Shown here piece by piece: positions 5,221 through 34,511 of a stretch of DNA of 64,000 bases. Location: contig NZ_AP023415.1 in the NCBI RefSeq assembly GCF_018326305.1, positions 682,001-746,000 on the forward strand, given 5' to 3'. Positions within the stretch are counted from its first letter, which is position 1. Every line of letters begins with the position of its first letter. The notes under the pieces are model-generated. The model was not told the DNA's origin, ran no database searches, and saw only the letters and a list, made by a program, of their open reading frames with translations. The DNA comes from Vescimonas fastidiosa. Lineage in GTDB: Bacteria; Bacillota; Clostridia; Oscillospirales; Oscillospiraceae. The position numbers and the translations under genes were made by a program.

Positions 5221-5258
5221 AAAAAGTGCCGTCTCGGGATCACTCCCGAGACGACACT
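5221..5258 (-). terminator. terminator of the giant surface-protein operon
   Basis: GTGCCGTCTCGGGA (5227-5240) pairs with TCCCGAGACGACAC (5245-5258), 14 bp with one mismatch. On the minus strand it is followed by TTTTTT; a T-run on the other side makes it potentially bidirectional. Confidence 0.85.
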
Positions 5259-5322: not shown

Positions 5323-8300
5323 TTATGCGCCGATCTGGTTATCAATGTCGCACAGCAGGAACACGAAGTAGCTCTCCGCTGAATACGCCACGGGCCTACC
5401 GTTAGCGTCCAGGCCCGTCACCTTCGCCATAAGGCGATAATTGGACAGGATACCCTGGTAGTCCGTTTTCATTTGTTTCAGCACATAGTCCAGATTTACA
5501 GACAGCGTGTACTGCCCCGTTGCCTTCCAGTCCGTCGTCAGAGGCAGCACTGTTCTTCCGTCGACATCCACCGTTCCGAGGGTCCCCAGCAGATTTTTTT
5601 TGCTGTAAACATGCTTCCCGGAATCGGCATCATACTGCTTCTGATAGAGGAAAAACTCCACCTTGGCCGACTTAATATTCTCCCGATCCGTCACCGGCAC
5701 GGCGCTGAAATCCGCCACCAGATCAAACAGAATTTTACCGCTGTCGGTGCTGTCTTTCACGCCGCCCATGTTGATAGCCTGGCTTTTACGGTCCACCGGG
5801 ATCACCGTCAGCTTCACCGGCACAGCCGTTTTTGCCGTAAAACTGAGCGCTTGCCCCTCTATTTTGCTGCCGTTGGTGTAGTGAGCCCGATCGCTGGAGA
5901 TGTAGAATTCATCCTGCAGCGTATAAAGGCCGCCATCGGCAAATACCCCGCTAAAATCCGCAGGCGACACCTCCGAGAAGTCCAGCGTAAGTACAAAATC
6001 ATCCGTCAGGCTGTCGCCTGGGGCCAAGGACACTATGTTATCCAGCTCATAGCGCACCGTAGAGGTAGGCGTTGTGACGCGAGTAGCCAGCAAAGTCTTA
6101 CCGTCCTTGCCCGTCAGGAGCGCCTTTGTCCCGGCAGGCAGAGAAACAGCCTTATTGCTCGCATCCATGATCCTAAACACATGGGTCCCGTAGATGTCCC
6201 GGTCATGCATGGCAGAGATATAGTTGCTGGGGAAATTCACCTGCACATGGGCATTCACCACCAGCTCCTTACCAACCACATTGGAAAAGGTCGTGGCAGG
6301 CGTTTCCAGTTTCATTTTGCCTGTGGCCTTGCCCCACACATTCACGGAGCATGCTTCCTTATGATCCCGAACAATGATGTTCTTGTCATTTTCCGCCACC
6401 GTAGCCCGCAGTGTGTACTGCATCAGCGACTCTGCCGTCTGAGGAATCACCATCAGGAGATACCGCTCCACATGGCCGTAGTTCGCATCCTTGCACAGGT
6501 GGTCTTTCTTTCCAAGCAGATTCTTCACCACCTCCGGCAAGAGCTTCACGGTAAAGGGTTCTCCTGCCTCACTCTGAAAGCTGCTGAAGTCCAATGTGTA
6601 GGTGTCTTTATCAGCGGTGTAGTAGTAGCTCTTATATCCATAGGCCCCGGGGCTATTCAGATCCACCAGCACGAATTTGGTCCCGGCGGTAAAGGCGTTC
6701 TTCTTGTCGCTGGAGCTGCCATCCGGGGTGCCGGACTCGATCCGCTTGTCAAAATTGAAGTTTTCGATCTTCTTAGCCGTGTCATTATACGCATACTCCA
6801 CATACAGGGAGTATTTACTGCCGGCAGACACATTAATGAAGTTCTTCGGAGCCGTCAGGAAAGAGCTGAGCTGGTATACCTCGCCCTCCAAAGCGGATAT
6901 ATTGGACGTGTATTCCAAAATCTGCGGGTAATATACCACCACATTCATGGAGTAGGTCTGTGTGGGGACGGCACTGGACTGGAAAGTCAGTGTCAGCACC
7001 GTCAGGGACTTATTCTCCGACTCCAGATCATCGTACTTACCGGCGGTGAACTTCTGCCCGTCATACAGCACGCTCCCGTCCCCTTTTGCCTGCGGGGAAA
7101 GGGTACCGTCGTTTCCGAGGGTATAGCGGTCCGCCTGAACCGTAAGCGTATAGGCACTTCCCATAGCGCCGAACCCGCCGCCTGTAAGCAGATTCAGGAA
7201 AGAGGACATGGTCTGCTGGGTAGCCCCGTTGATGGAAAGCACGGGGAGGTCTGTATTCTGCGTGATTCTCAGCTTATCCGCTGTCAGGACAGACAGGGTT
7301 TTTATGCCCGTATCCTCCAGCTTCACGGTCTTGTCCTTCCAGGCCGCCCAGCCTTCCAGGTTGGCATTGAGATAGTCGGGCGTGGCACTGCCCTGCGTCT
7401 TAGTCACCGCGTCGCCGTTGAGCTTGCCCGCCGTCACAGGTGTTACGCCATGATCCGCCAGCGCCTGCGCCGGGGTGTAAGCCGTGTTGTTTTTGTCGAA
7501 ATGCTCCGTCTCAAACACCGACGGCGCACCGTACCCGGCAAAGATCACCGTGGCCTTTCCGCTGCTCTCTGTAACAAACCTTTCCTGCTGATTGATATTT
7601 GTTCCGGCCTCGCTACTGAAAGCAAGGATATTAGCTGTCCCGGTATTCTTGTACCCGATCAATCCGACACTCTTGTAATCCGTCCCAGTCACACCGGAGG
7701 GCTTCGTGGTCGTCATCTTCAATATATCGGCAATCGTTTTCGCAGAACCGGTAAAGGCCATGTCATTGTTCTTCATCAGGATATTGCAGCCGTTCAGCAC
7801 TCCTTTTTCGCTGATGGTATCCACGATGCCGCCTGCCTCTTTTTTATCTTTAAACCCGCTGCGGAGCATATTGTCCGCAAAATACAGGCCATCCAGCGAC
7901 ACAGGCTTCCCGACCGTGTTGAAGATTCCGGCCAGCGAGCTATTCGTCGATTGTATGTAATTGCCGAATACCTTTATGTTCTGTAGAGAAGTGGATGCGC
8001 CATTAAAGCCCCGAAGAACACCGGCCGCCCTACTCCCCGCAATGATGCAGTTGGAAACCTCTGCGTCTGTCACATCCACGGAAATCTGGTTCACATGCCC
8101 CAAAAGTCCGCTGGCAAACACATCGCCGCCTGAATTCTTGGTCGCCAAAATATACACCGGAGCAGACGCACTGCCGGACACCTTTACCCTCTTTGCAACG
8201 ACAGCATTTGCGCTGTCGCCTTGCTCATGCCACGGGATCAGTCCCGCCGAGCAGGAGCGACCCATGATGTAAAGGGGATGATTCGTTGTCTGAACGCTGA

Positions 8301-11300
8301 GATTCGTGAAGCTGTAATTTGCTCCGCGCTTACCCTCGCCCACAACGCCGCCGCCATTGTTGTAGCCCAATATCGCTGTGGGTGCCGTGTCGGACTTTAC
8401 CACGCAATTCGTGTATGTATTAGCCTGTGCGGTTACGCCCACAAATCCGCCCGCATTTCCGGCAGCATCCGTGCTGCTGCTGAGGGCATAGGCCAGCGCA
8501 TTCTTCGTCCCGTCAGAGATACCGCTCACATCCACGGTCGATGTCGTATACTCCGTGGGATAGGTGTTCCCATTGTACCCGGAGCAGGACACCACCTCCG
8601 CCCCGTCCAGGGTGCAATTGCTAAAGGTCACGCTGGCCCTGCTTGTCCCAATAAAGCCGCCGGCGTTTCCGTTATACGAAGAGCTCGTCGTTTTTTTTGA
8701 TACAAACTGCACGCTCGAGCCGCTGACCGACGAATCTGTAACCGAAATAGTCCCGTTCATAATACAGCCGATCAATCCACCCGTAGCCGCATTGTAAGTA
8801 TCGTTGTTTGCGTCAGAGAATTCAGATACCTTTGTCTGGACCTGTGCATTCGTCACTTTCACATTGGAAAGCTGCGTGTTGCTGCCCGCCCGAAGGAAAG
8901 CGTACACCGCCCCGGTGCTCTGCAAGCCTTCCAGCTTCACACTGTCTATAACACATCCATTTACAGAAGAACCATTTTGATTGTGCTCACTGGCGACAAG
9001 ACCACCGGCCCAACCGGGAGAGTGGATAGTCAAATCTTTCAGCGCCACATCCGTGAATTTTGCTCCACCGGAATAGCCCAAAAAGCCGCCCAAGCAGAAC
9101 AGCGTTTCCTTATTATTGCTTCCATCCAGCTTCAACCAGTGGCTCATTTTCTTCGTCAGCTCTGTGTTATTGGCAATGTCATATACAGAAAGGGAAATTG
9201 TGCCGCTCACAGTTATATTAGAGATCAAGACCGGTCCACCGCCGGTGGGCTCCATCACCAAGGCCATATTGTGAACAGAGTCGGGCTCATATTTGCTGCT
9301 CGCCTGATAGCAATACTGTTTCAAAGACGCATTGAGTTTGACCAAAGTCCCAGTGGCTGCTCCATGTACCTCCAGCACATTGTAGCACTCCGTACCTAAA
9401 TAGGGGCTGCCAAGTCCACGAAAGGCATTGCCGAACTGGCTCATATCATATTCTGCGCCTGTCAGGGTCGCGGTAATTTTCCCTTTTCTGCTTATCCCGG
9501 TTCCCGCCGGAATACCGAAATACCTCCGAATCAGGTTATCCCCGTCCGTCCGCGCATCCTCGGCATAGCGCCCGGCGGTAATGGTCACATCCGGGTGGTT
9601 CGTCTCACCCACATACGCATAATTCCCACTGCGGGATAATACATCTGCGCCATACGACAGTGAGTTCGTCTCGTCCGACAGGGCCCCACTGTACATGGAG
9701 TACCCCAGCATCATCAGGTCCGCCGCATTATCCAGCGTGAACGCGCCGCCCTGATCTCCCTGCGCTGTGAATGTCCCGGTGGTCTGCTTCGCCGCAATAT
9801 AGGCGATGGAGGCATACTTCGGTGTATTTTTATATTCCTGATCATCCGAGATAGCATAGCCGCAGAACGCCTTGCCCACATAGGGCGCATAGTAAAAATA
9901 CTGGGAATTCTCCGCAGTCTCGACCTTGTCAACGCCCGGGCCCAGGCTCCGCACCGTGACACCGCCGCCGGAAATCAAGCCCACATAGCCGCCGAAAACC
10001 GAGGTCTTATGCCCCGCCGTCAGGGAATTCACACGGACGGTCACATGGTCCAGCACATTGTCTCCGCCGACGATCCAGCCGATAGCGCCGCCGAAATGCG
10101 CCACACTCGTGGCAGCCCGCTTAGTCGAAAAGGCTCGGCTGGTCGGGCTGTCCCAGCTGCTAAAGCTCCCCGACAGTCCTACTTTTTCATAGCTCAGCTC
10201 CAGCCCGTACACCGCGCAGCCGTTGGCCACATTGATAAATCCACAGTAGCCCGTGTTGCCCACATTCGTGTTATCCGGCAGCTTAATAACGGTCCCATTG
10301 CCCGCAATGACCCCGTGGAAGGGATATTGCTCCGTTCCGATGCCCGTAAACTCGCTTGAGAGCTCCATAGGCGCAGAAATCTTGTAATACGCTCCCCGCA
10401 GATACTCCCGCAGCGTCTCCGCCTTCAGGGTCTTCGTCCCGCTCATCAGCTTGCCCGAGGCCGATGCGGTGTATACATCACAGTCGGTATAGTCCAAGGC
10501 GGTGCCGCTGGCCTTGGGATAGTTGATGATCCACTCCGACTGGAACGAGTACGAATCGATCATACTCACCAGCTTCGTCAGTTCCTCCAGCTGTGCGGCT
10601 CTTTCGATAATATAAGGATGCTCGTATGTGCCCCAACCAATGTCAAAATTCACACTCTTGCGGTTTACCCGCAGGCTGGTGCCGCCGTCCATGGTGGTAA
10701 GCACATAGGGCATATATCCGTTGGAAAACGCCGTGTTCGTGCCGCCATGTTGGGTCGGTTGCGTATTGGGGTCCACCAATATCTCCTGGTCGTAATACTC
10801 GTACTGCTTGGGGTTGGTAGAAATTTCCGTACCGTAGGTCACGGCGTTCTTGTGTCCGCCGTCCCAGTCCTCCGCCAGGTTGAAGTTATAGATGTATGCG
10901 CCCGTGCCGTTCACGCAGTTAATAGCCTCAAAGTAGCTGGCCTTGGTGAAGATGGACTTCCCTTTCTCCGCCGCAAAAACGATGTTTTTGAAAGTCACGG
11001 AGATGTTGGAGGAGGCCGTACTATTGTTTTCCTTAGCCACGCCGCCCCTGCCGATCAGCGCACTGGCCGCCTTAGCCGTGTAAGCGGTCGTCTTATTGAC
11101 CTCCTCATAAGTGCCCTGTGTATACTGAGAAACGGAGGTCAGGGCTCCGGTGACATTGCTGCCAATGGTGTCTATCAGCAGCGGCGTGGCCGCGCCGTCC
11201 ACCGTCAGCCCGTCAAAGAACACCTTTTCCACCTTGAAATTGGCGTCCGCCGTCACAGTGGCGGTCCGATTGCCCACCACCTTACCGCAGATGAACGCGC

Positions 11301-14300
11301 CGGAGCTACTGCTGTTATTGTTGTTTACCGGGAAAATTTTCCCGCTCAGGGTAATATTCGTAAGCGAAGCGGTGATACTTTCGTTTGTGGCGATCACATC
11401 GGACAAAATACCGCTCTGAATGCCGAACATCTGCCCTGTCTGGGGCAGGCCCGCCACAGTATAGCCAAAGGTCAGCTTCTTCCCGCTGAAGTCAAAGGTC
11501 ACCCCCTCCTTCTTCGTGGGATAGAAGGAGTAATTGGTCATGTCGATGTCCTTGTCGGCCCCGGTGATGTCTGTGATGGCCGCGGGAAAGCTCTTCTCCC
11601 GCACATAGTCCGGCAGCGCCCCCTGCACATAGTCGTACACATGCCAGTAGATCACATCCGCCGGAGTCTTAGCTGTTGTGCTGGGCGTATAATCTCCGTC
11701 TGTATAATCCAGCTTGGCGATGTTGAAATAATATCTCGTATTGCTGTTTTGCCGGGCGGAGATCATGCTATACCAGCCGCTGGTGTCAGGAATTCTACCT
11801 ATATCTGCATCCTCAGTTATCCCCGTCTCCACCGTCACCAGTCCGCCGGTGGCAGCAACGCCCATAGACGCACGGGAAGCAATATTCTTTCCCACAAACA
11901 GATCAAATCCGTCCGCCTTAACGGTCTGGAACCCCGACGGGTCGCAGTTGACCACAACAAACGCCTGGGTGCCCTCGGCCACCAAAATGCCCTTGGTTTC
12001 GCCTTTTGATGTAAAGGTAGAGCCATTTACAGAGAAGCCGCTATTTACCGTCAGCTTGCCGTCCAGGTCGTAAATAAGTCCGCCCACGGACGCATTGCCG
12101 CTGCTGACCGTACCCTGCCAGGCCCCATCCAGCACCAGCTTGCACTTCTGCACCGTGTGACCGATCAGGCCCCCGGCAGAGGCGCTGGACGCAGAGGTCA
12201 CAGACGCATTGACCGCCTTGGTACCGGTCATGTCCACATTGATGTAGTTGTTGCATATCAGGTCGCCGAAGCACCCGCCCACATGAGCGTTGGTCGCATT
12301 CACATTTTGGGTAATTGACGCGCTGATTGTGTTGCCCGTAAACGCAATGTCCTTACTGGTATTGGTGCTCACTTTGCCCACCATACCCCCAAGATAAACG
12401 GCCTCAATGCCATAGCTCCCATTCAGCAAGCTGATCTTCGCTGTGGTAGTGCTGTCTGTGATGCTGATAGCAGTATTACTTTGGATGGAACCTAAAAAAC
12501 CACCTATATAAATGCTCATGCGCGTGAAACCCTTACCTTTATCCAAGGTAATATTCAGATTCGTCGTGCAGTTTTGGATGGTGATAGAATTTCCCGAAAC
12601 ATACCCCCCAAAGCCACCGAGGAAAAAGCCCTTCGGCGCATCTGCATAGTGCATCACTTCACCGTCCACGGTGAGATTTTCCACCGACGCACCGGCTATT
12701 GCGGAAAAAGCGCCCATCCAGCAGCGATTATTGACCGAATTGACCGAAGAAATATCCGCCAGTACACCCACATTGGCAGATTCCGCTCCTTGCGTCCGGG
12801 CACTCTCACCGATAGAGAGGGTCAGCGTATGACCACCGCCCACTATCTTGCCGGAGAAAACGGTATAGGGATCATTGGATGGCGTAAACTGCTCCACGCC
12901 GCTGCCCCGCAGGTCAATATCCCCCGTTAGGGTAATGGTGACAGACGAAGAAAGCAGATTTTTATATTGATTGCCCTGAATGCCCTTTACCCCGCTGACC
13001 GCGCCGTGGGTGTGCAGCGTCAGGGCCAGCTTAGCCGCATCCGCCGCCGAGCTCAAGGTAATATTGGTCGAAAAAGTCAAAGGATTCTGCACAGACACTG
13101 TATGACTTGCGGCATCAAAGTTGAGAATATGCAGCTTATCATTGCGCAGAATCTGCCCGTAGTTGCCCACATCGTTGCTGGCAAGTGTCCCGGTGCGGGC
13201 AAAGGTGTAGTCGGTATCTGCGTACAGCAGCGATTGGTTCTGGGTGCGCACGATATGTCCGGAGCTGGCAGAGCTGTCCGTGATAGCCCCGGCCAGGCGC
13301 AGCACCGTCCCGACTCCGGTGGCGGAAACCAGAACCGATGCCTGCCCATTATTCGTATATGTGATGCGGCCTACATCCACAAGCGCTTTATCCGCAGCCT
13401 GCCCCACCAGGTCGCCGACGCCCGCCTGCAAAGCGGCGTTCATGGTGTTATTCAGCGTGAGGTTGTCCAGCTTGCAGTAAGCCCCCTGCTTCACGCAGCC
13501 CACAGCGCCGCCCAGGGAGCCGGAGAAGCCGCCGCTCGCAAAGGTATTCGTCACCGTCATGCCCCCGCCTACCGTCACAACGGAGTTAGCCTTCACCGTG
13601 CCGATAACGCCGCCATAACTGCCCGCCGTCAGGGAATTAAATGTAAAGGCAGAAGCCTTGCCATTTGTAAGCGTCACAGCATTTTTACCCGAAATCAGGC
13701 CGAAATAGCCGCCCACACTGTGGTCTGCCGCGCCGGTTCCGTTGAAGGTGGCGCCGGTCACGGTCACATCGGTGAAGTTCGCCGCTTTCTCGGCGGTAAA
13801 GCTGCCTATAAAGCCGCCTATATTACCACTTTTGTCAAATGTGTTCCCGGACAGGACAAAGCTGCCCACCGGAGCCGCCGTGGCCTGTCCCACCGCGCCC
13901 CCCAGCATCGGCAGGGTAGCCGCCGAAGTAAAGGTGCTGCCTGAAACGGTGCAGGTTTTCCCCGTTTCCACGGTGATCTTGCCGTCGGATTTGCCCGCTA
14001 CGCCGCCTACATACGCGCCCGTAGCTGTAAAGGCGTTCACCGTTACACTCTTAGCAAAATTAACTGTTCCCGTATTCGCGTTCACGCCCACCAGGCCTGC
14101 GGCGTAGTCAGCCGCCGCCGTAGCGCTGCCTGTATAGGTGCTTTCGCTGCTCACGGTGAAAGTGCCCTTGTTTTCGCCCACCAGCAGACCGGCATTACCC
14201 GCACCGGCACTGGAAACCAGGATATTCAGGTTCCCTGTGGTCACGGAAACCGACGCATCTTTCTCAATCATGCCAAACAGACCGCCTGCGCTGCCGCCGG

Positions 14301-15075
14301 CCGTCTCCAAGGCGTACTGGGCTCCGTCCTTGAAGCAGGGACTCAGATCCACGGCGCAAGTGCCACTGCCCGTGACCTTACCCGCCACCAAGCCCGCCGT
14401 CTTATTCCCTTGCACTACACCCTTTACGCTTCCGTCACTCTGCACCTCTCTGGCCGCAAAGCGGAATGCGCTGATATCCAGGGCATGGCTATCCTTTGTA
14501 ATGGTGAGCGTATCGCACAAAGCAAAGGGCGCATTAATATCCGCACACAAGTCAATTTTATCAGTTTCTTTGGTAATAGACGCCTCATTGGACAGATTGT
14601 TAAACAGCACATTCCACCCACTAATCTTCAGGTAGGTCGATCCGGGCACTTTGGCCATATAAATTTTGCCCTTAAAGGGATGTTCGTCGTTGCCGATACC
14701 GTAAAAACTTTTCTCCAAATCCCCCGCATCTACCGTCAATTCCCAAGTATCACTTGCAAAAATTTGGAAGGTATATCCCTCCAGGCTATTCGACTGAGAC
14801 ACTCGGGCCAGCGTAACGAAGCCCTGAGCCCCGGTAATGCCGAATTCCTTATCCCCATTGCGGGTAATACCCCCATAGGAGCCGTTGTCAGCAAGGTTCA
14901 AAATTTTGCTTGCATCCAGAGCATATCCGGCCGGTATCTCCGCCGCATAGGCCCGGCTCCACCAAGTCAAAGCGATCACCACCACCGCCGCCAAAGCTGT
15001 GAAAAGGCATACGGCGGACCGCACCGACAGTACGCCCGCTCTCCCCTTTTTATTTGTTTGCAATCTACTTTTCAT
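5323..15075 (-). CDS. giant exported repeat protein, 3,250 residues (GLUG/beta-helix-like adhesin)
   Basis: A basic N-terminus and hydrophobic stretch (about 21-38) end in SRAYA-AE, a good signal-peptidase I site. From about residue 230 to 2350 the chain is built of imperfect units with the recurring pattern GG-x-(V/L/F)-G among T/S/N/V-rich beta strands, as in GLUG-type and right-handed beta-helix surface proteins. The last 500 residues are repeat-free and resemble stacked beta-sandwich domains. No LPXTG-like sorting motif, choline-binding, SLH, LysM or C-terminal membrane span is visible; the chain ends CDIDNQIGA. AGGTGA is six bases before the chosen ATG; another ATG two codons earlier abuts it. 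It is last in the c-di-GMP-controlled operon. A surface adhesin or matrix protein is inferred. Confidence 0.8.
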   Translation of the reverse strand: MKSRLQTNKKGRAGVLSVRSAVCLFTALAAVVVIALTWWSRAYAAEIPAGYALDASKILNLADNGSYGGITRNGDKEFGITGAQGFVTLARVSQSNSLEGYTFQIFASDTWELTVDAGDLEKSFYGIGNDEHPFKGKIYMAKVPGSTYLKISGWNVLFNNLSNEASITKETDKIDLCADINAPFALCDTLTITKDSHALDISAFRFAAREVQSDGSVKGVVQGNKTAGLVAGKVTGSGTCAVDLSPCFKDGAQYALETAGGSAGGLFGMIEKDASVSVTTGNLNILVSSAGAGNAGLLVGENKGTFTVSSESTYTGSATAAADYAAGLVGVNANTGTVNFAKSVTVNAFTATGAYVGGVAGKSDGKITVETGKTCTVSGSTFTSAATLPMLGGAVGQATAAPVGSFVLSGNTFDKSGNIGGFIGSFTAEKAANFTDVTVTGATFNGTGAADHSVGGYFGLISGKNAVTLTNGKASAFTFNSLTAGSYGGVIGTVKANSVVTVGGGMTVTNTFASGGFSGSLGGAVGCVKQGAYCKLDNLTLNNTMNAALQAGVGDLVGQAADKALVDVGRITYTNNGQASVLVSATGVGTVLRLAGAITDSSASSGHIVRTQNQSLLYADTDYTFARTGTLASNDVGNYGQILRNDKLHILNFDAASHTVSVQNPLTFSTNITLSSAADAAKLALTLHTHGAVSGVKGIQGNQYKNLLSSSVTITLTGDIDLRGSGVEQFTPSNDPYTVFSGKIVGGGHTLTLSIGESARTQGAESANVGVLADISSVNSVNNRCWMGAFSAIAGASVENLTVDGEVMHYADAPKGFFLGGFGGYVSGNSITIQNCTTNLNITLDKGKGFTRMSIYIGGFLGSIQSNTAISITDSTTTAKISLLNGSYGIEAVYLGGMVGKVSTNTSKDIAFTGNTISASITQNVNATNAHVGGCFGDLICNNYINVDMTGTKAVNASVTSASSASAGGLIGHTVQKCKLVLDGAWQGTVSSGNASVGGLIYDLDGKLTVNSGFSVNGSTFTSKGETKGILVAEGTQAFVVVNCDPSGFQTVKADGFDLFVGKNIASRASMGVAATGGLVTVETGITEDADIGRIPDTSGWYSMISARQNSNTRYYFNIAKLDYTDGDYTPSTTAKTPADVIYWHVYDYVQGALPDYVREKSFPAAITDITGADKDIDMTNYSFYPTKKEGVTFDFSGKKLTFGYTVAGLPQTGQMFGIQSGILSDVIATNESITASLTNITLSGKIFPVNNNNSSSSGAFICGKVVGNRTATVTADANFKVEKVFFDGLTVDGAATPLLIDTIGSNVTGALTSVSQYTQGTYEEVNKTTAYTAKAASALIGRGGVAKENNSTASSNISVTFKNIVFAAEKGKSIFTKASYFEAINCVNGTGAYIYNFNLAEDWDGGHKNAVTYGTEISTNPKQYEYYDQEILVDPNTQPTQHGGTNTAFSNGYMPYVLTTMDGGTSLRVNRKSVNFDIGWGTYEHPYIIERAAQLEELTKLVSMIDSYSFQSEWIINYPKASGTALDYTDCDVYTASASGKLMSGTKTLKAETLREYLRGAYYKISAPMELSSEFTGIGTEQYPFHGVIAGNGTVIKLPDNTNVGNTGYCGFINVANGCAVYGLELSYEKVGLSGSFSSWDSPTSRAFSTKRAATSVAHFGGAIGWIVGGDNVLDHVTVRVNSLTAGHKTSVFGGYVGLISGGGVTVRSLGPGVDKVETAENSQYFYYAPYVGKAFCGYAISDDQEYKNTPKYASIAYIAAKQTTGTFTAQGDQGGAFTLDNAADLMMLGYSMYSGALSDETNSLSYGADVLSRSGNYAYVGETNHPDVTITAGRYAEDARTDGDNLIRRYFGIPAGTGISRKGKITATLTGAEYDMSQFGNAFRGLGSPYLGTECYNVLEVHGAATGTLVKLNASLKQYCYQASSKYEPDSVHNMALVMEPTGGGPVLISNITVSGTISLSVYDIANNTELTKKMSHWLKLDGSNNKETLFCLGGFLGYSGGAKFTDVALKDLTIHSPGWAGGLVASEHNQNGSSVNGCVIDSVKLEGLQSTGAVYAFLRAGSNTQLSNVKVTNAQVQTKVSEFSDANNDTYNAATGGLIGCIMNGTISVTDSSVSGSSVQFVSKKTTSSSYNGNAGGFIGTSRASVTFSNCTLDGAEVVSCSGYNGNTYPTEYTTSTVDVSGISDGTKNALAYALSSSTDAAGNAGGFVGVTAQANTYTNCVVKSDTAPTAILGYNNGGGVVGEGKRGANYSFTNLSVQTTNHPLYIMGRSCSAGLIPWHEQGDSANAVVAKRVKVSGSASAPVYILATKNSGGDVFASGLLGHVNQISVDVTDAEVSNCIIAGSRAAGVLRGFNGASTSLQNIKVFGNYIQSTNSSLAGIFNTVGKPVSLDGLYFADNMLRSGFKDKKEAGGIVDTISEKGVLNGCNILMKNNDMAFTGSAKTIADILKMTTTKPSGVTGTDYKSVGLIGYKNTGTANILAFSSEAGTNINQQERFVTESSGKATVIFAGYGAPSVFETEHFDKNNTAYTPAQALADHGVTPVTAGKLNGDAVTKTQGSATPDYLNANLEGWAAWKDKTVKLEDTGIKTLSVLTADKLRITQNTDLPVLSINGATQQTMSSFLNLLTGGGFGAMGSAYTLTVQADRYTLGNDGTLSPQAKGDGSVLYDGQKFTAGKYDDLESENKSLTVLTLTFQSSAVPTQTYSMNVVVYYPQILEYTSNISALEGEVYQLSSFLTAPKNFINVSAGSKYSLYVEYAYNDTAKKIENFNFDKRIESGTPDGSSSDKKNAFTAGTKFVLVDLNSPGAYGYKSYYYTADKDTYTLDFSSFQSEAGEPFTVKLLPEVVKNLLGKKDHLCKDANYGHVERYLLMVIPQTAESLMQYTLRATVAENDKNIIVRDHKEACSVNVWGKATGKMKLETPATTFSNVVGKELVVNAHVQVNFPSNYISAMHDRDIYGTHVFRIMDASNKAVSLPAGTKALLTGKDGKTLLATRVTTPTSTVRYELDNIVSLAPGDSLTDDFVLTLDFSEVSPADFSGVFADGGLYTLQDEFYISSDRAHYTNGSKIEGQALSFTAKTAVPVKLTVIPVDRKSQAINMGGVKDSTDSGKILFDLVADFSAVPVTDRENIKSAKVEFFLYQKQYDADSGKHVYSKKNLLGTLGTVDVDGRTVLPLTTDWKATGQYTLSVNLDYVLKQMKTDYQGILSNYRLMAKVTGLDANGRPVAYSAESYFVFLLCDIDNQIGA

Positions 15076-15106
15076 ACACATTCACCTGTTGTCTGTATGT
15101 GTGTCC

Positions 15107-16039
15107 TTATGGCAGCTGCTGCCACTTTACAAAGCTCTCCAGATCCGTCCAGTTATAGCTATTGTTCTTCCAGGGATTGTTCTTCTCATCTTCTATCCCC
15201 TGCACCCGCATGAAGGAGAGCCGGCCATAGTAGTCCGTCTCCTGGGGAATATAGATATATTTGTCGAATCCGTCCGTTGGATTTTCCACATTCCGCGCCT
15301 TGAAATCATTATGCTCCATCAGCGTCAGCCGGTCCGACCGCCACAGCACCCGCAAAACACCGTTCTTCGGCGGCTCACCTACCATGGAGATTCCATAGAT
15401 AAACGCTGCGTAGTCCTCTATATCCACATTTCCTTCGGTTTTTTCAAACCCGCAGTCCACATGGAAGCCCTCTGACCGGGACGGCACGATGCACGCCCCC
15501 AGCATCCGGCTGGCCATATATCGGGGCGTATCAGGCACAGCCACCATCAGCAACTTAGGGAAGGTAGTCAGGTCTTCGTTTGCATTGGCGTTAAACTGCA
15601 CCGTTATGGCCAGCTCCGAGGCCTTTTTTCCCTTGAGTGTGGCGGTAAATATCGGTGTATCATGGGTCGTGCTGTTCACCGTCTTACCCGTCGTAGTACC
15701 ATAGGAAATGGTATAGGCCCGCCCGGTATCGTCCTTGTCCAGCCAGGCATACACGGAGAAGGTCACATCAAAGTCGTTATACTCCCCCGTAGAGCGGTCA
15801 TAGTTATAAAAGCTGATGCTCTTGGCCGCCATACCCTGGGGCCGCACCACATTTTTATCCGCCTCCTCAAACCTGGAAACGCTGCTGAGCACATCGCTGG
15901 AAAAGGAGTGCTTCCGATTCACGAACACATCCTTAAAGTTGCCCTTGCCATAGTAGGCTGCCAGCACCAGCGTGGCCGACAATGCCAGCACCAGCACCGC
16001 CCATAGGGCCGCAGGGAGCTTCTTTTTTCTTAGTCTCAT
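15107..16039 (-). CDS. membrane-anchored extracellular protein of the surface operon, 310 residues
   Basis: The product has a basic start (MRLRKKK), one hydrophobic span (about 9-28) ending AAYYG, and a large beta-rich ectodomain. The segment VFVNRKHSFSSDVLSSVSRF just outside the membrane looks like a conserved recognition stretch. No cell-wall binding domain or enzyme motif is seen. GGGGGG precedes the ATG. It is four bases downstream of the previous gene and 31 bases upstream of the giant protein gene, so the four genes form one unit. I do not recognise a named family. A role as assembly partner or anchor of the giant protein is inferred from context. Confidence 0.7.
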   Translation of the reverse strand: MRLRKKKLPAALWAVLVLALSATLVLAAYYGKGNFKDVFVNRKHSFSSDVLSSVSRFEEADKNVVRPQGMAAKSISFYNYDRSTGEYNDFDVTFSVYAWLDKDDTGRAYTISYGTTTGKTVNSTTHDTPIFTATLKGKKASELAITVQFNANANEDLTTFPKLLMVAVPDTPRYMASRMLGACIVPSRSEGFHVDCGFEKTEGNVDIEDYAAFIYGISMVGEPPKNGVLRVLWRSDRLTLMEHNDFKARNVENPTDGFDKYIYIPQETDYYGRLSFMRVQGIEDEKNNPWKNNSYNWTDLESFVKWQQLP

Positions 16040-16043
16040 GCCG

Positions 16044-16742
16044 TCACGCCCCCCTCTTGGTGCCGCCCTGGGTCACGATGTACACCACATCCGTCTCTTT
16101 CTCCAGCTCCGCCTCGGAGATATTCTCCTTCCAGGTCACCTGCAGCACATAAAAGCGGTAGGCTTCCGTGTCGTTGAGCTTGGCATAGATGTCTGTTCCC
16201 TTGGCAGTATAATCCTTAAACTCGTCGCTGTATGTCTTATATACGCCCCGGTTCAGGTGCGTCTGGTCCTGCGTTTCATCGTCTACTCTATCCTTGGTAT
16301 ATTTGACCGTTGCTTTCCAGCTCGCATCCGAAGTGGTATAGTTAAAATAGCAGTCCTGCCCTTCCAAAGTCCGCTTCTCGTACTCGCTGCCTTTGGCCGC
16401 ATCGGTGATGTTCTGCACCGGGTACAGGTTAATGACCATGCCGATGTTCTCCGTGTAGATCACGCCCAAATCAAAGTCCTTCACCGCCCCCTCATAGGCC
16501 GGAGCCACGCAGAACAGGGCGTTATAGGTCTTATTGATCTGCAGGCCGTCCAGATCGAAGGAGGTCATCTCCCGCAGATTGTCGTCCTTGATGTAAATGA
16601 TGGGTGGCATTTCAATTTCCAAGTCCCCCGACCGGCTTCGGTTGGCCAGCGCAAACCAGGCAACGGCGGAGATCATCAGCACCCCCGCCATCACCAAGAT
16701 CAGTAGCATTTTCTGTGAAATTTTCCGTTTCCCGGCTTGCAT
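16044..16742 (-). CDS. membrane-anchored extracellular protein of the surface operon, 232 residues
   Basis: An N-terminal span (about 11-31, MLLILVMAGVLMISAVAWFA) carries a Trp-Phe pair at its outer edge and is followed by a beta-rich ectodomain of about 200 residues. The same edge feature occurs in the first protein of the operon, which suggests related anchoring segments. GGAGGAG lies nine bases before the ATG and the preceding stop codon is six bases away. No catalytic motif is visible. The general layout recalls camelysin/TasA-type fibre proteins, but similarity is too weak to claim membership. Confidence 0.68.
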   Translation of the reverse strand: MQAGKRKISQKMLLILVMAGVLMISAVAWFALANRSRSGDLEIEMPPIIYIKDDNLREMTSFDLDGLQINKTYNALFCVAPAYEGAVKDFDLGVIYTENIGMVINLYPVQNITDAAKGSEYEKRTLEGQDCYFNYTTSDASWKATVKYTKDRVDDETQDQTHLNRGVYKTYSDEFKDYTAKGTDIYAKLNDTEAYRFYVLQVTWKENISEAELEKETDVVYIVTQGGTKRGA

Positions 16743-16748
16743 CGTCTT

Positions 16749-17510
16749 TTACTCCTCCTGCACGGTCAGGTCAAAGCACATATGCCGCAGCGTGGTGCCG
16801 ATGATGTAGTCGGCCTTGTTGTAGCCGTCCCCGGACTTTTCGCCGCTTTCAAACATCTCTGACAGGTGTTCCTTGCTGCCGTAATATGCTGCAATATCCG
16901 CCCGGTCTTTCTCGGCAATGAGCGCGCCGCTCGCAAAAATATCGCTGTACCAGGGCACCCACACCCAGTACACCGTCACCGCCTGCTCCTGCGCAGTGGC
17001 TTTCACCTGCTCCGACTGCCCACCGGGTATCCACCCGGAGTAAGTACCGTCCGTATTTTTCTCCCGGAAGAACAGCAGATGTGCGTTGATGTGCTGCAAG
17101 GCCTCCTTCTGCATAGCCTCCGTTGTATCGGCGTAGAACCCTTTGTTCTTCGTATCGCCCGGAAAGAATTCGTTGTTCGTCACCGTCAGCACATAAGAGA
17201 AGGAAAAGTCCGCCCTGTCCGGATTGTACACATAAAAGGTGAAGCTCCCGGATTCCCCGGGCCGAATGCGTGTCAGGTTCGCACCGCCGAAGTGCTTCAT
17301 ATCAGCGGAGGGCTGCATCACGGCGATATTCGTCCCGTCGCTGACGGCTCGTATTTCCAGGCTTCCCTTGGCCGACACGCTCATGCCGGTGGCAGACGCC
17401 CCAACGCTGTTTGTAAACCAGCTAAAGCCGACACTAGCTGCGAAAATGGCAAAGGCGATCATGGCCGCTGCCAGCAGCAGGCCCACAAAGGCCGATGTTT
17501 TCTTTGACAC
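16749..17510 (-). CDS. membrane-anchored extracellular protein, first gene of the surface operon, 253 residues
   Basis: The start is taken as the GTG at 17510, seven bases after GGAGG; longer upstream frames would run into the leader terminator. The protein has one membrane span (about 7-28) followed by the outer-edge motif FSWFTNSVGASATGMSVSA, a pattern that I associate with fibre-type surface proteins of Clostridia, and a beta-rich ectodomain. As first gene it is separated from the leader terminator by 40 bases, so its expression depends on the riboswitch. No enzymatic motif is seen. A pilin-like or scaffold role is inferred. Confidence 0.68.
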   Translation of the reverse strand: MSKKTSAFVGLLLAAAMIAFAIFAASVGFSWFTNSVGASATGMSVSAKGSLEIRAVSDGTNIAVMQPSADMKHFGGANLTRIRPGESGSFTFYVYNPDRADFSFSYVLTVTNNEFFPGDTKNKGFYADTTEAMQKEALQHINAHLLFFREKNTDGTYSGWIPGGQSEQVKATAQEQAVTVYWVWVPWYSDIFASGALIAEKDRADIAAYYGSKEHLSEMFESGEKSGDGYNKADYIIGTTLRHMCFDLTVQEE

Positions 17511-17550
17511 AGGCGTCCCTCCTTTCCCCGTAGGCCGCACCGGTTTTTCT

Positions 17551-17590
17551 AAAAAAGACAAAACGCCGCAATATCCAGGATATTGCAGCG
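17551..17590 (-). terminator. riboswitch-associated intrinsic terminator
   Basis: On the minus strand CGCTGCAATATCC pairs with GGATATTGCGGCG (13 bp, one T-G pair), followed by TTTTGTCTTTTTT. Its 5' arm overlaps the 3' end of the riboswitch aptamer (the GCTGC segment), so aptamer folding and terminator formation should compete. Confidence 0.9.
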
Positions 17591-17672
17591 TGGCTGACTT
17601 TTCGAAAAAAGTCCCGATAGCTTTGCGTCACCGCCTCACGACGGTTTTGCCTAAATCATTCAGTTGAATCAC
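17583..17672 (-). promoter_or_regulatory. cyclic di-GMP-I (GEMM) riboswitch
   Basis: The minus strand reads GGCAAAACC, a P2 hairpin CCGTC-GTGA-GGCGG with a GNRA tetraloop, then the hallmark GACGCAAAGC, then a P3 hairpin GACTTTT-TTCG-AAAAGTC, then CAGCCACGCTGC. These match the GEMM aptamer core in order and spacing. It lies between a strong promoter and the first gene of the surface operon. Because the terminator 5' arm shares the aptamer 3' end, ligand binding most simply favours read-through (an ON switch); the 5' strand of P1 is not obvious, so the direction is inferred. Confidence 0.9.
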
Positions 17673-17715
17673 CCCGTATGCTCGCCCCCTGGGTCAGCTC
17701 CGGCTATGGTAATTC
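17666..17715 (-). other. additional structured 5' leader domain upstream of the riboswitch
   Basis: Directly after the predicted start the leader carries a first copy of AGGCAAAACCG. Then GAATTACC (17715-17708) can pair with GGTGATTC (17673-17666) over 8 bp, enclosing a GC-rich internal domain with CCGGAGCTGACCCAGGGGG. The second AGGCAAAACCG belongs to the aptamer. The domain lacks the GACGCAAAGC box, so it is not an intact second aptamer. I do not recognise it. Confidence 0.5.
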
Positions 17716-17729
17716 GGTTTTGCCTGAAA

Positions 17730-17758
17730 ATTGTAACACATTTCCATCCCTCTGTCAA
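17730..17758 (-). promoter_or_regulatory. strong sigma-A promoter of the surface operon
   Basis: On the minus strand TTGACA (17758-17753), a 17-base spacer and TACAAT (17735-17730), with a TGT extended -10. The start would fall near 17723, giving a leader of about 210 nt. Nothing recognisable lies between it and the next gene's ribosome site at 17887. Confidence 0.88.
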
Positions 17759-30964: not shown

Positions 30965-33604
<2,640 letters not shown>

Positions 33605-34279: not shown

Positions 34280-34505
34280 AAAAAATAAAAACTCCGCCCC
34301 ACACATAGGGGCGAAGTTAAACTCCACGGTACCACCCTAATTCGGCAGAAAGCTCTGCCCTCTTAGCCATCCTGTAACGGGGATGCACCGTCCGGCTCCT
34401 CACCGGCCGCTCCGAAGTGGCACACAAACGCCTGCATCCAACGGGCTTTCACCTACCCCCGTCTCGCTTCGGACCGGCTATTTGCTTTACTTCCTCTCAG
34501 CATTT
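34280..34505 (-). promoter_or_regulatory. T-box leader, tRNA-Ala specific (specifier GCC)
   Basis: The minus strand carries the T-box core AGGGTGGTACCGTGGAG (complement of 34321-34338), followed by the terminator stem AACTTCGCCCC / GGGGCGGAGTT (34318-34308 with 34300-34290) and TTTTTATTTTTT. Stem I closes with CCGAAG / CTTCGG. The specifier region on its 3' side reads GTGTGCCA, giving the triplet GCC (34421-34419) followed by the usual purine. Ala matches the alaS gene downstream. Uncharged tRNA-Ala should stabilise the antiterminator and switch the operon on. Confidence 0.92.
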
Positions 34506-34511
34506 TTTCTT

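Follow-up and report, generated by a model that had tools for sequence, protein, structure and literature searches.

The 64,000-nucleotide stretch of Vescimonas fastidiosa DNA analysed here (contig NZ_AP023415.1, positions 682,001–746,000; hereafter the window) carries on its minus strand a four-gene operon, g1–g4, headed by a class I cyclic di-GMP (c-di-GMP-I) riboswitch. We infer, with somewhat more confidence than doubt, that this operon is activated by c-di-GMP and that its products, processed by a SipW-type signal peptidase, assemble into a TasA-like fibre of several subunits that bears a giant protein. The features concerned, in the order of transcription, are as follows.

17730..17758, minus strand: sigma-70-type promoter with an extended −10 (TTGACA-17-TACAAT), 11 of 12 consensus matches.
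17581..17661, minus strand: c-di-GMP-I riboswitch aptamer (RF01051), located by covariance score.
17563..17591, minus strand: intrinsic terminator, a 13-bp stem followed by a T-rich tail, with its 5′ arm overlapping the aptamer 3′ strand (ON-switch layout).
16749..17510, minus strand: g1, a 253-residue single-span protein with a GTG start and a span ending FSWF; candidate fibre subunit.
16044..16742, minus strand: g2, a 232-residue single-span protein with a span ending AWF; candidate fibre subunit.
15107..16039, minus strand: g3, a 310-residue single-span protein with a Tyr-type junction and a conserved FSS motif; candidate fibre subunit.
5323..15081, minus strand: g4, a 3,252-residue exported giant protein with an AxA-type signal peptide.
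5226..5257, minus strand: probable operon end terminator downstream of g4 (an inverted repeat followed by a T-run, read by eye).

An earlier note on this DNA had described a consensus promoter, a c-di-GMP-I aptamer, a terminator overlapping the 3′ end of the aptamer, and four tightly spaced genes for three single-span proteins with β-rich ectodomains and one exported giant; this description held up throughout, the β-rich character being borne out by the two ectodomains that were predicted. The gaps between g1, g2, g3 and g4 are 6, 4 and 25 nt. Hydropathy places exactly one N-terminal span in each of the four proteins, that of g4 being of the signal-peptide type with its AxA-type site recognised by eye, and the g4 sequence contains 18 GGxxG-type motifs (shuffled mean 1.9, maximum 9). 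The predicted ectodomains of g1 and g2 are rich in strands, with helices as well in g1. The open frame of g1 extends back to a TTG at 17561, inside the terminator tail, but the GTG at 17510 is the likelier start because it is preceded by GGAGGG. At the g3 junction the window has AAYY, and homologues mostly have YAxY/F. GLUG-type repeat proteins were considered as a comparison for g4, but no Pfam family matched it at E ≤ 1 and hence no Pfam repeat model did. The absence of a sortase motif, also claimed earlier, was borne out: the sole LPxTG-type match in g4 is internal (residue 1212), and g1–g3 of the window have none. Two candidate identities were considered and rejected, a sortase pilus because g1–g4 have no C-terminal sorting signal and a type IV pilus because no pilin family matched in Pfam or NCBIfam.

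The four genes travel together. Searching 394 genomes of the order with a profile built from three g2 homologues identified g2 in ten genomes (the own genome included), which come from nine of the 168 genera and from seven families. Nine of the ten loci keep g1, g2, g3 and the giant in the same order and on one strand, and in the tenth (G312) the contig runs out beyond g2; joint conservation had been set beforehand, in the earlier note, as a test that could overturn its proposal. All 27 g1–g3 proteins from the nine loci holding all three have a single N-terminal span. The giant is complete in five loci (3,252, 3,340, 3,330, 3,954 and 3,609 residues) and reaches the contig end in four, and the g4 of the window is homologous to that of G039, the two being 24% identical across a local alignment of 2,225 columns (E = 1e-70). 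Since g1, g2 and g3 of the relatives are only 16–26% identical to those of the window, the shared gene order does not reflect recent copying. An aptamer above cut-off lies directly upstream of g1 in seven of the ten loci. The proposal in the earlier note of a c-di-GMP-gated extracellular fibre assembly is strengthened by this co-conservation and by the riboswitch in 7/10 loci, with the qualification that riboswitch control is not universal. Of 223 g1 homologues, the 120 listed are all 89–100% identical; profile searches reached 327 g2 and 227 g1 homologues, and a single-sequence g1 query of 60 genomes found the own genome only. In one search the four matches outside the own genome comprised two cassettes (L005 and L007) and two loci without a cassette in the listed frames (L006 and L008).

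The statement that there was no SipW-like peptidase is right for the operon and wrong for the genome, where SipW-like genes lie in a second operon led by a c-di-GMP-I site (51.8 bits). This partner operon contains the following genes.

L012 5991–6836, downstream of the aptamer on the same strand: short EAL-domain protein (39.8 bits, cut-off 31.3).
Downstream, same strand: 257-residue membrane protein.
Downstream, same strand: 242-residue protein with the start ...STYAWFSMN.
Same strand: first SipW-like peptidase (TIGR02228, 53.9 bits as a protein against 51.85).
Same strand: 522-residue McrB-like AAA+ protein with a membrane span.
Same strand: 834-residue DUF2357-like protein (18.8 bits, short of its cut-off of 23.3).
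Same strand: second signal peptidase (TIGR02228, 53.7 bits).
L097 6041–8431, same strand: EAL/weak-GGDEF protein (GGDEF 23.2 bits against 23.8; EAL 193.5 bits).

EAL proteins thus flank the partner locus of the own genome at both ends. The DUF2357 assignment gains from a homologue in G079 (L084), which scores 39.4 bits against the same 23.3 and to which the own copy is homologous (E = 5e-87). SipW adjoins the AAA+ gene both here and in relatives. One genome (G369) holds two near-duplicate partner-type loci, L087 and L088 (contigs C121 and C12), whose contigs each open with an EAL-like fragment, a 257-residue-type gene and a T242-type gene, after which the subunit sets and giants differ.

Across genomes, cassette and partner machinery co-occur. 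The AAA+ gene (E ≤ 1e-60) is present in all ten cassette genomes and in 34 of the 384 others (Fisher 1.1e-10, ignoring kinship and taking the 394-genome draws behind the AAA+ and g2 counts to be identical), and TIGR02228 exceeds its cut-off in all ten compared with 82 of 245 genomes in a sample of the order, five of the ten being among the 245. Association with the RF01051 aptamer is weaker (7/10 against 74/245, p = 0.01, the large sample having been searched under stricter filters). Within the cassette genomes, 9 of 25 c-di-GMP-I sites, from six of seven genomes, have a TIGR02228 match at most 10 kb downstream on the same strand, where about 0.24 are expected; this count includes matches under the family cut-off. 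Physical linkage is direct at L025, where AAA+, DUF2357-like and SipW-like genes lie upstream of g1–g4 on the same strand, the SipW-like gene 783 nt before g1. In G315 one contig ends in g4 and another starts with a partner locus; the two share an overlap of exactly 141 nt and so probably adjoin, although this falls short of proof. Two further genomes without a g2 match have c-di-GMP-I sites near SipW-like genes (G054:C12 and G271:C23), so the link between riboswitch and SipW is wider than g1–g4.

The subunits themselves provide another connection. The span of g1 and the next ~25 residues (GWFxxNxxVxAxGMxVxA) match subunits of the SipW-bearing partner loci; hhalign gives 97.2% against partner subunits of G039, G064 and G080 and 95.7% against the 242-residue family, with the match confined to this module, and 89.6% when a single sequence is used. 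Scanning window frames of at least 120 residues with a crude motif (a hydrophobic run, then small-W-F/L/V/S/I) flagged 4 of 154, namely g1, g2 and two outside the operon. Full-length paralogy of g1, g2 and g3 was considered and rejected, as the g1/g2 match (hhalign 85.3%) covers the membrane/WF segment only, g2/g3 is weak (54.7%) and g1/g3 amounts to nothing (4.3%). Several more proteins encoded in the partner loci have this kind of start, some of them ~1,400–2,400 residues long. Four partner-locus giants of ~1,440–1,960 residues (L085 1460–7021, L086 11720–16045, L087 6398–11986 and L089 10231–16101) have a common span-WF/WL start and a common block, SYVHKSYFESGDGT, and make up a second giant family in SipW loci.

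The predicted structures of g1 and g2 incline weakly towards donor-strand pilins and TasA. Foldseek ranks a TasA fibre first for the g2 model (E = 7e-3); TasA is not among the fold matches listed for g1, which excludes nothing, and the N-terminal segment of the g1 model is disordered. The earlier statement that the set has no pilin stands by sequence, where no pilin family matched, and is qualified by these predicted folds. Alternatively, g1–g3 might stay in the membrane by N-terminal anchors that are never cleaved and hold g4 there, the giant acting as an adhesin or a sugar-binding protein without polymerising, in a c-di-GMP-controlled surface complex that builds no fibre. Such a complex would suit the one hydrophobic N-terminal span in each of g1–g3, the lack of an evident AxA site after that span in the g1–g3 listed (g4 has one by eye), the position of the three genes before a single giant in 9/10 loci and fold matches to fibre proteins that are not significant. 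It sits poorly with the g1 anchor and its following ~25 residues being common to subunits that adjoin a SipW-like peptidase, and with the presence of such a peptidase in all ten cassette genomes; we regard it as rather less likely than the fibre.

Over these surface genes stands a class I riboswitch in the ON layout. Its promoter has TG preceding the −10, and shuffling the 451-base region yields a mean of 0.4 such sites; its aptamer scores 57.1 bits where the gathering score is 35, and is full length (1–87, E = 1.6e-8). The terminator 5′ arm reaches 11 nt into the aptamer match, or 19 nt with the extended hairpin given by RNAfold. Because this arm overlaps the aptamer 3′ strand, a ligand-held aptamer should block termination, and c-di-GMP should raise expression. 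The arrangement recurs in all eight leaders compared (seven from cassettes and that of the second c-di-GMP-I operon of the own genome), each having a strong hairpin with a T-rich tail whose 5′ arm is the aptamer 3′ strand, with overlaps of 9–19 nt and free energies (dG) of −16.0 to −21.5. Of the 25 c-di-GMP-I sites found in the ten cassette genomes, 22 combine an overlap of 8 nt or more with dG ≤ −12, against 11 of 1,000 when the downstream bases were shuffled. On one contig of G039 (C30, 43621–51560; L041, L044, L048 and L051) an 8-kb segment contains four c-di-GMP-I aptamers, including a tandem pair only ~40 nt apart. That the riboswitch is an OFF switch, the operon serving states of low c-di-GMP, would agree with the class I riboswitches of Clostridioides difficile, described in the available text of PMC11477304 as transcriptional OFF switches. 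We consider this improbable, since terminator arm and aptamer overlap in 7/7 aptamer-bearing cassette leaders and also in the partner-operon leader of the own genome.

Taken as a c-di-GMP-activated fibre system, the operon suggests the following mechanism. Binding of c-di-GMP to the class I aptamer would hold the aptamer 3′ strand, so that the terminator 5′ arm could not form and transcription would read through into g1–g4; high c-di-GMP would open both operons. Export of g1–g3 would use atypical signal segments, which end in WF in g1 and g2 and in a Tyr-type junction in g3, and at these junctions the SipW-like peptidase of the second operon would presumably cut. The freed N termini may then act as donor strands linking subunits into a fibre, a step suggested by the weak fold matches and by the disorder at the N terminus of the g1 model. 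The giant g4 has a canonical signal peptide for its export and no apparent wall anchor; the fibre would carry or display it, and it would serve as an adhesin or a stalk. Co-occurrence makes the membrane-anchored pair of McrB-like AAA+ and DUF2357-like proteins a likely motor for assembly or export (or a regulator), and the EAL proteins encoded there may provide feedback by lowering c-di-GMP. A broader possibility, which we put forward more tentatively, is a regulon in which class I ON riboswitches co-activate a three-subunit donor-strand fibre with its giant and a dedicated building machine of McrB-like AAA+, DUF2357 and SipW proteins. An anti-phage role for the McrB-like/DUF2357-like pair, with the surface genes as unrelated neighbours, is very improbable: the matches of the AAA+ protein do include a PADLOC candidate family, at E = 1.5e-36, and McrB chains of solved structure, at E = 1.8e-6, but it has a strong hydrophobic N-terminal membrane span in all three proteins checked, adjoins SipW-like peptidases and fibre-type subunits, and belongs with McrB systems of a kind that the available text of PMC11090510 ties to pilus assembly.

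Several results weigh against a c-di-GMP-activated fibre. The models of g1 and g2 are of middling confidence (predicted local distance difference test 74.9 and 69.4), neither has a Foldseek match reaching E 0.001, all VIA Z values are below 8 and may reflect merely a common arrangement, and for g2 an unrelated hexosaminidase scores 7.7, equal to the pilins. Searching the PDB with profiles of g1, g2, g3 and the partner subunit family and with a deep g2 alignment gave no fibre protein with a useful E-value; the three matches in total (E 0.08–1.2) were a viral glycoprotein, a flagellin and FliL. For g1–g4 none of the Pfam or NCBIfam models exceeded its cut-off, and no NCBIfam model fell below E 0.006 for the relatives (sets A5–A7). 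The first SipW-like protein scores 50.0 in the genome search, slightly below cut-off, and the own genome has only two GGDEF matches, one of them weak and within an EAL protein. The cassette is rare and patchy across the order, and among 31 congeners there was no match to g1 (0/31) or g3 (0/31). Three sites miss the overlap of aptamer and terminator: one on G079:C17, and the leaders of two partner loci, those on C4 of G079 and C171 of G080. Three of the ten loci (L025, L027 and L029) have no aptamer even at E up to 5, and their genomes, in which no c-di-GMP-I site was found, still hold GGDEF proteins (15, 3 and 14 matches); riboswitch control is therefore usual rather than universal, and other control must act there.

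Elsewhere in the window, the plus strand encodes an RNase P class A RNA (57–403, 260.5 bits). On the minus strand a T-box leader (34304–34507) barely exceeds its cut-off (94.7 against 93 bits) and lies upstream, on the same strand, of a frame at 30965–33604 that we take to be alanyl-tRNA-synthetase-like.

The literature covered (titles and starts of abstracts, with subscription papers and bioRxiv preprints mostly outside) contained nothing on g1–g4 or on c-di-GMP control of such loci; CoCoPALM was named there in two versions of a single paper. Among the nearest known systems is the tapA-sipW-tasA fibre operon of Bacillus subtilis, in which, in the available text of PMC9674648, exported subunits are linked to a SipW-type signal peptidase under SinR control. 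The operon described here resembles it in its SipW-linked exported subunits, in their strand-rich ectodomains and in the TasA fibre ranked first for g2. It differs in having three subunit families dissimilar over their full length together with a 3,252-residue protein, a c-di-GMP-I riboswitch in place of SinR, and SipW mostly in a separate, co-regulated operon; nor is there a significant sequence or fold match to TasA. By the usual marks of TasA/SipW-type fibres, no curated family model matches and SipW is outside the operon, but SipW is present in the same genome in 10/10 cases. The sipW-bsaABC locus of Clostridium perfringens, compared by description, makes a SipW-dependent extracellular polymer from several secreted proteins with no sortase role found, and neither a giant protein nor a c-di-GMP riboswitch is described in the available text (PMC7395162). 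In C. difficile c-di-GMP riboswitches control adhesins and type IV pili, class I being OFF and class II mostly ON in the part of PMC11477304 available. The placing of such riboswitches over surface structures is shared here, unlike the class I switch with an ON layout and the lack of a known adhesin or pilin family.

The partner locus fits CoCoPALM, in which, according to the available text of PMC11090510, an McrB-like GTPase has a fused membrane domain and is accompanied by McrC-like (DUF2357) proteins and by signal peptidases, and for which pilus assembly is suggested. The fit lies in the McrB match, the membrane span, the adjoining SipW and the DUF2357 partner. That text gives neither substrate nor regulator, leaving detail for a later paper; the loci here, unlike CoCoPALM as described there, co-occur with g1–g4 and c-di-GMP-I riboswitches, and so offer loci unexplored in that account both candidate substrates and a candidate signal. 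If the regulon proposed above is correct, CoCoPALM would gain a function together with a substrate and a signal, and gut Clostridia a new class of regulated surface fibre. A second messenger and an RNA switch would then be joined, in one testable system of Oscillospirales-like bacteria, to a specialised signal peptidase, a membrane restriction-type AAA+ ATPase and a giant surface protein. Set beside these known systems, the proposed SipW-linked fibre is the familiar part, and the CoCoPALM-type machinery and the riboswitch control are the new ones.

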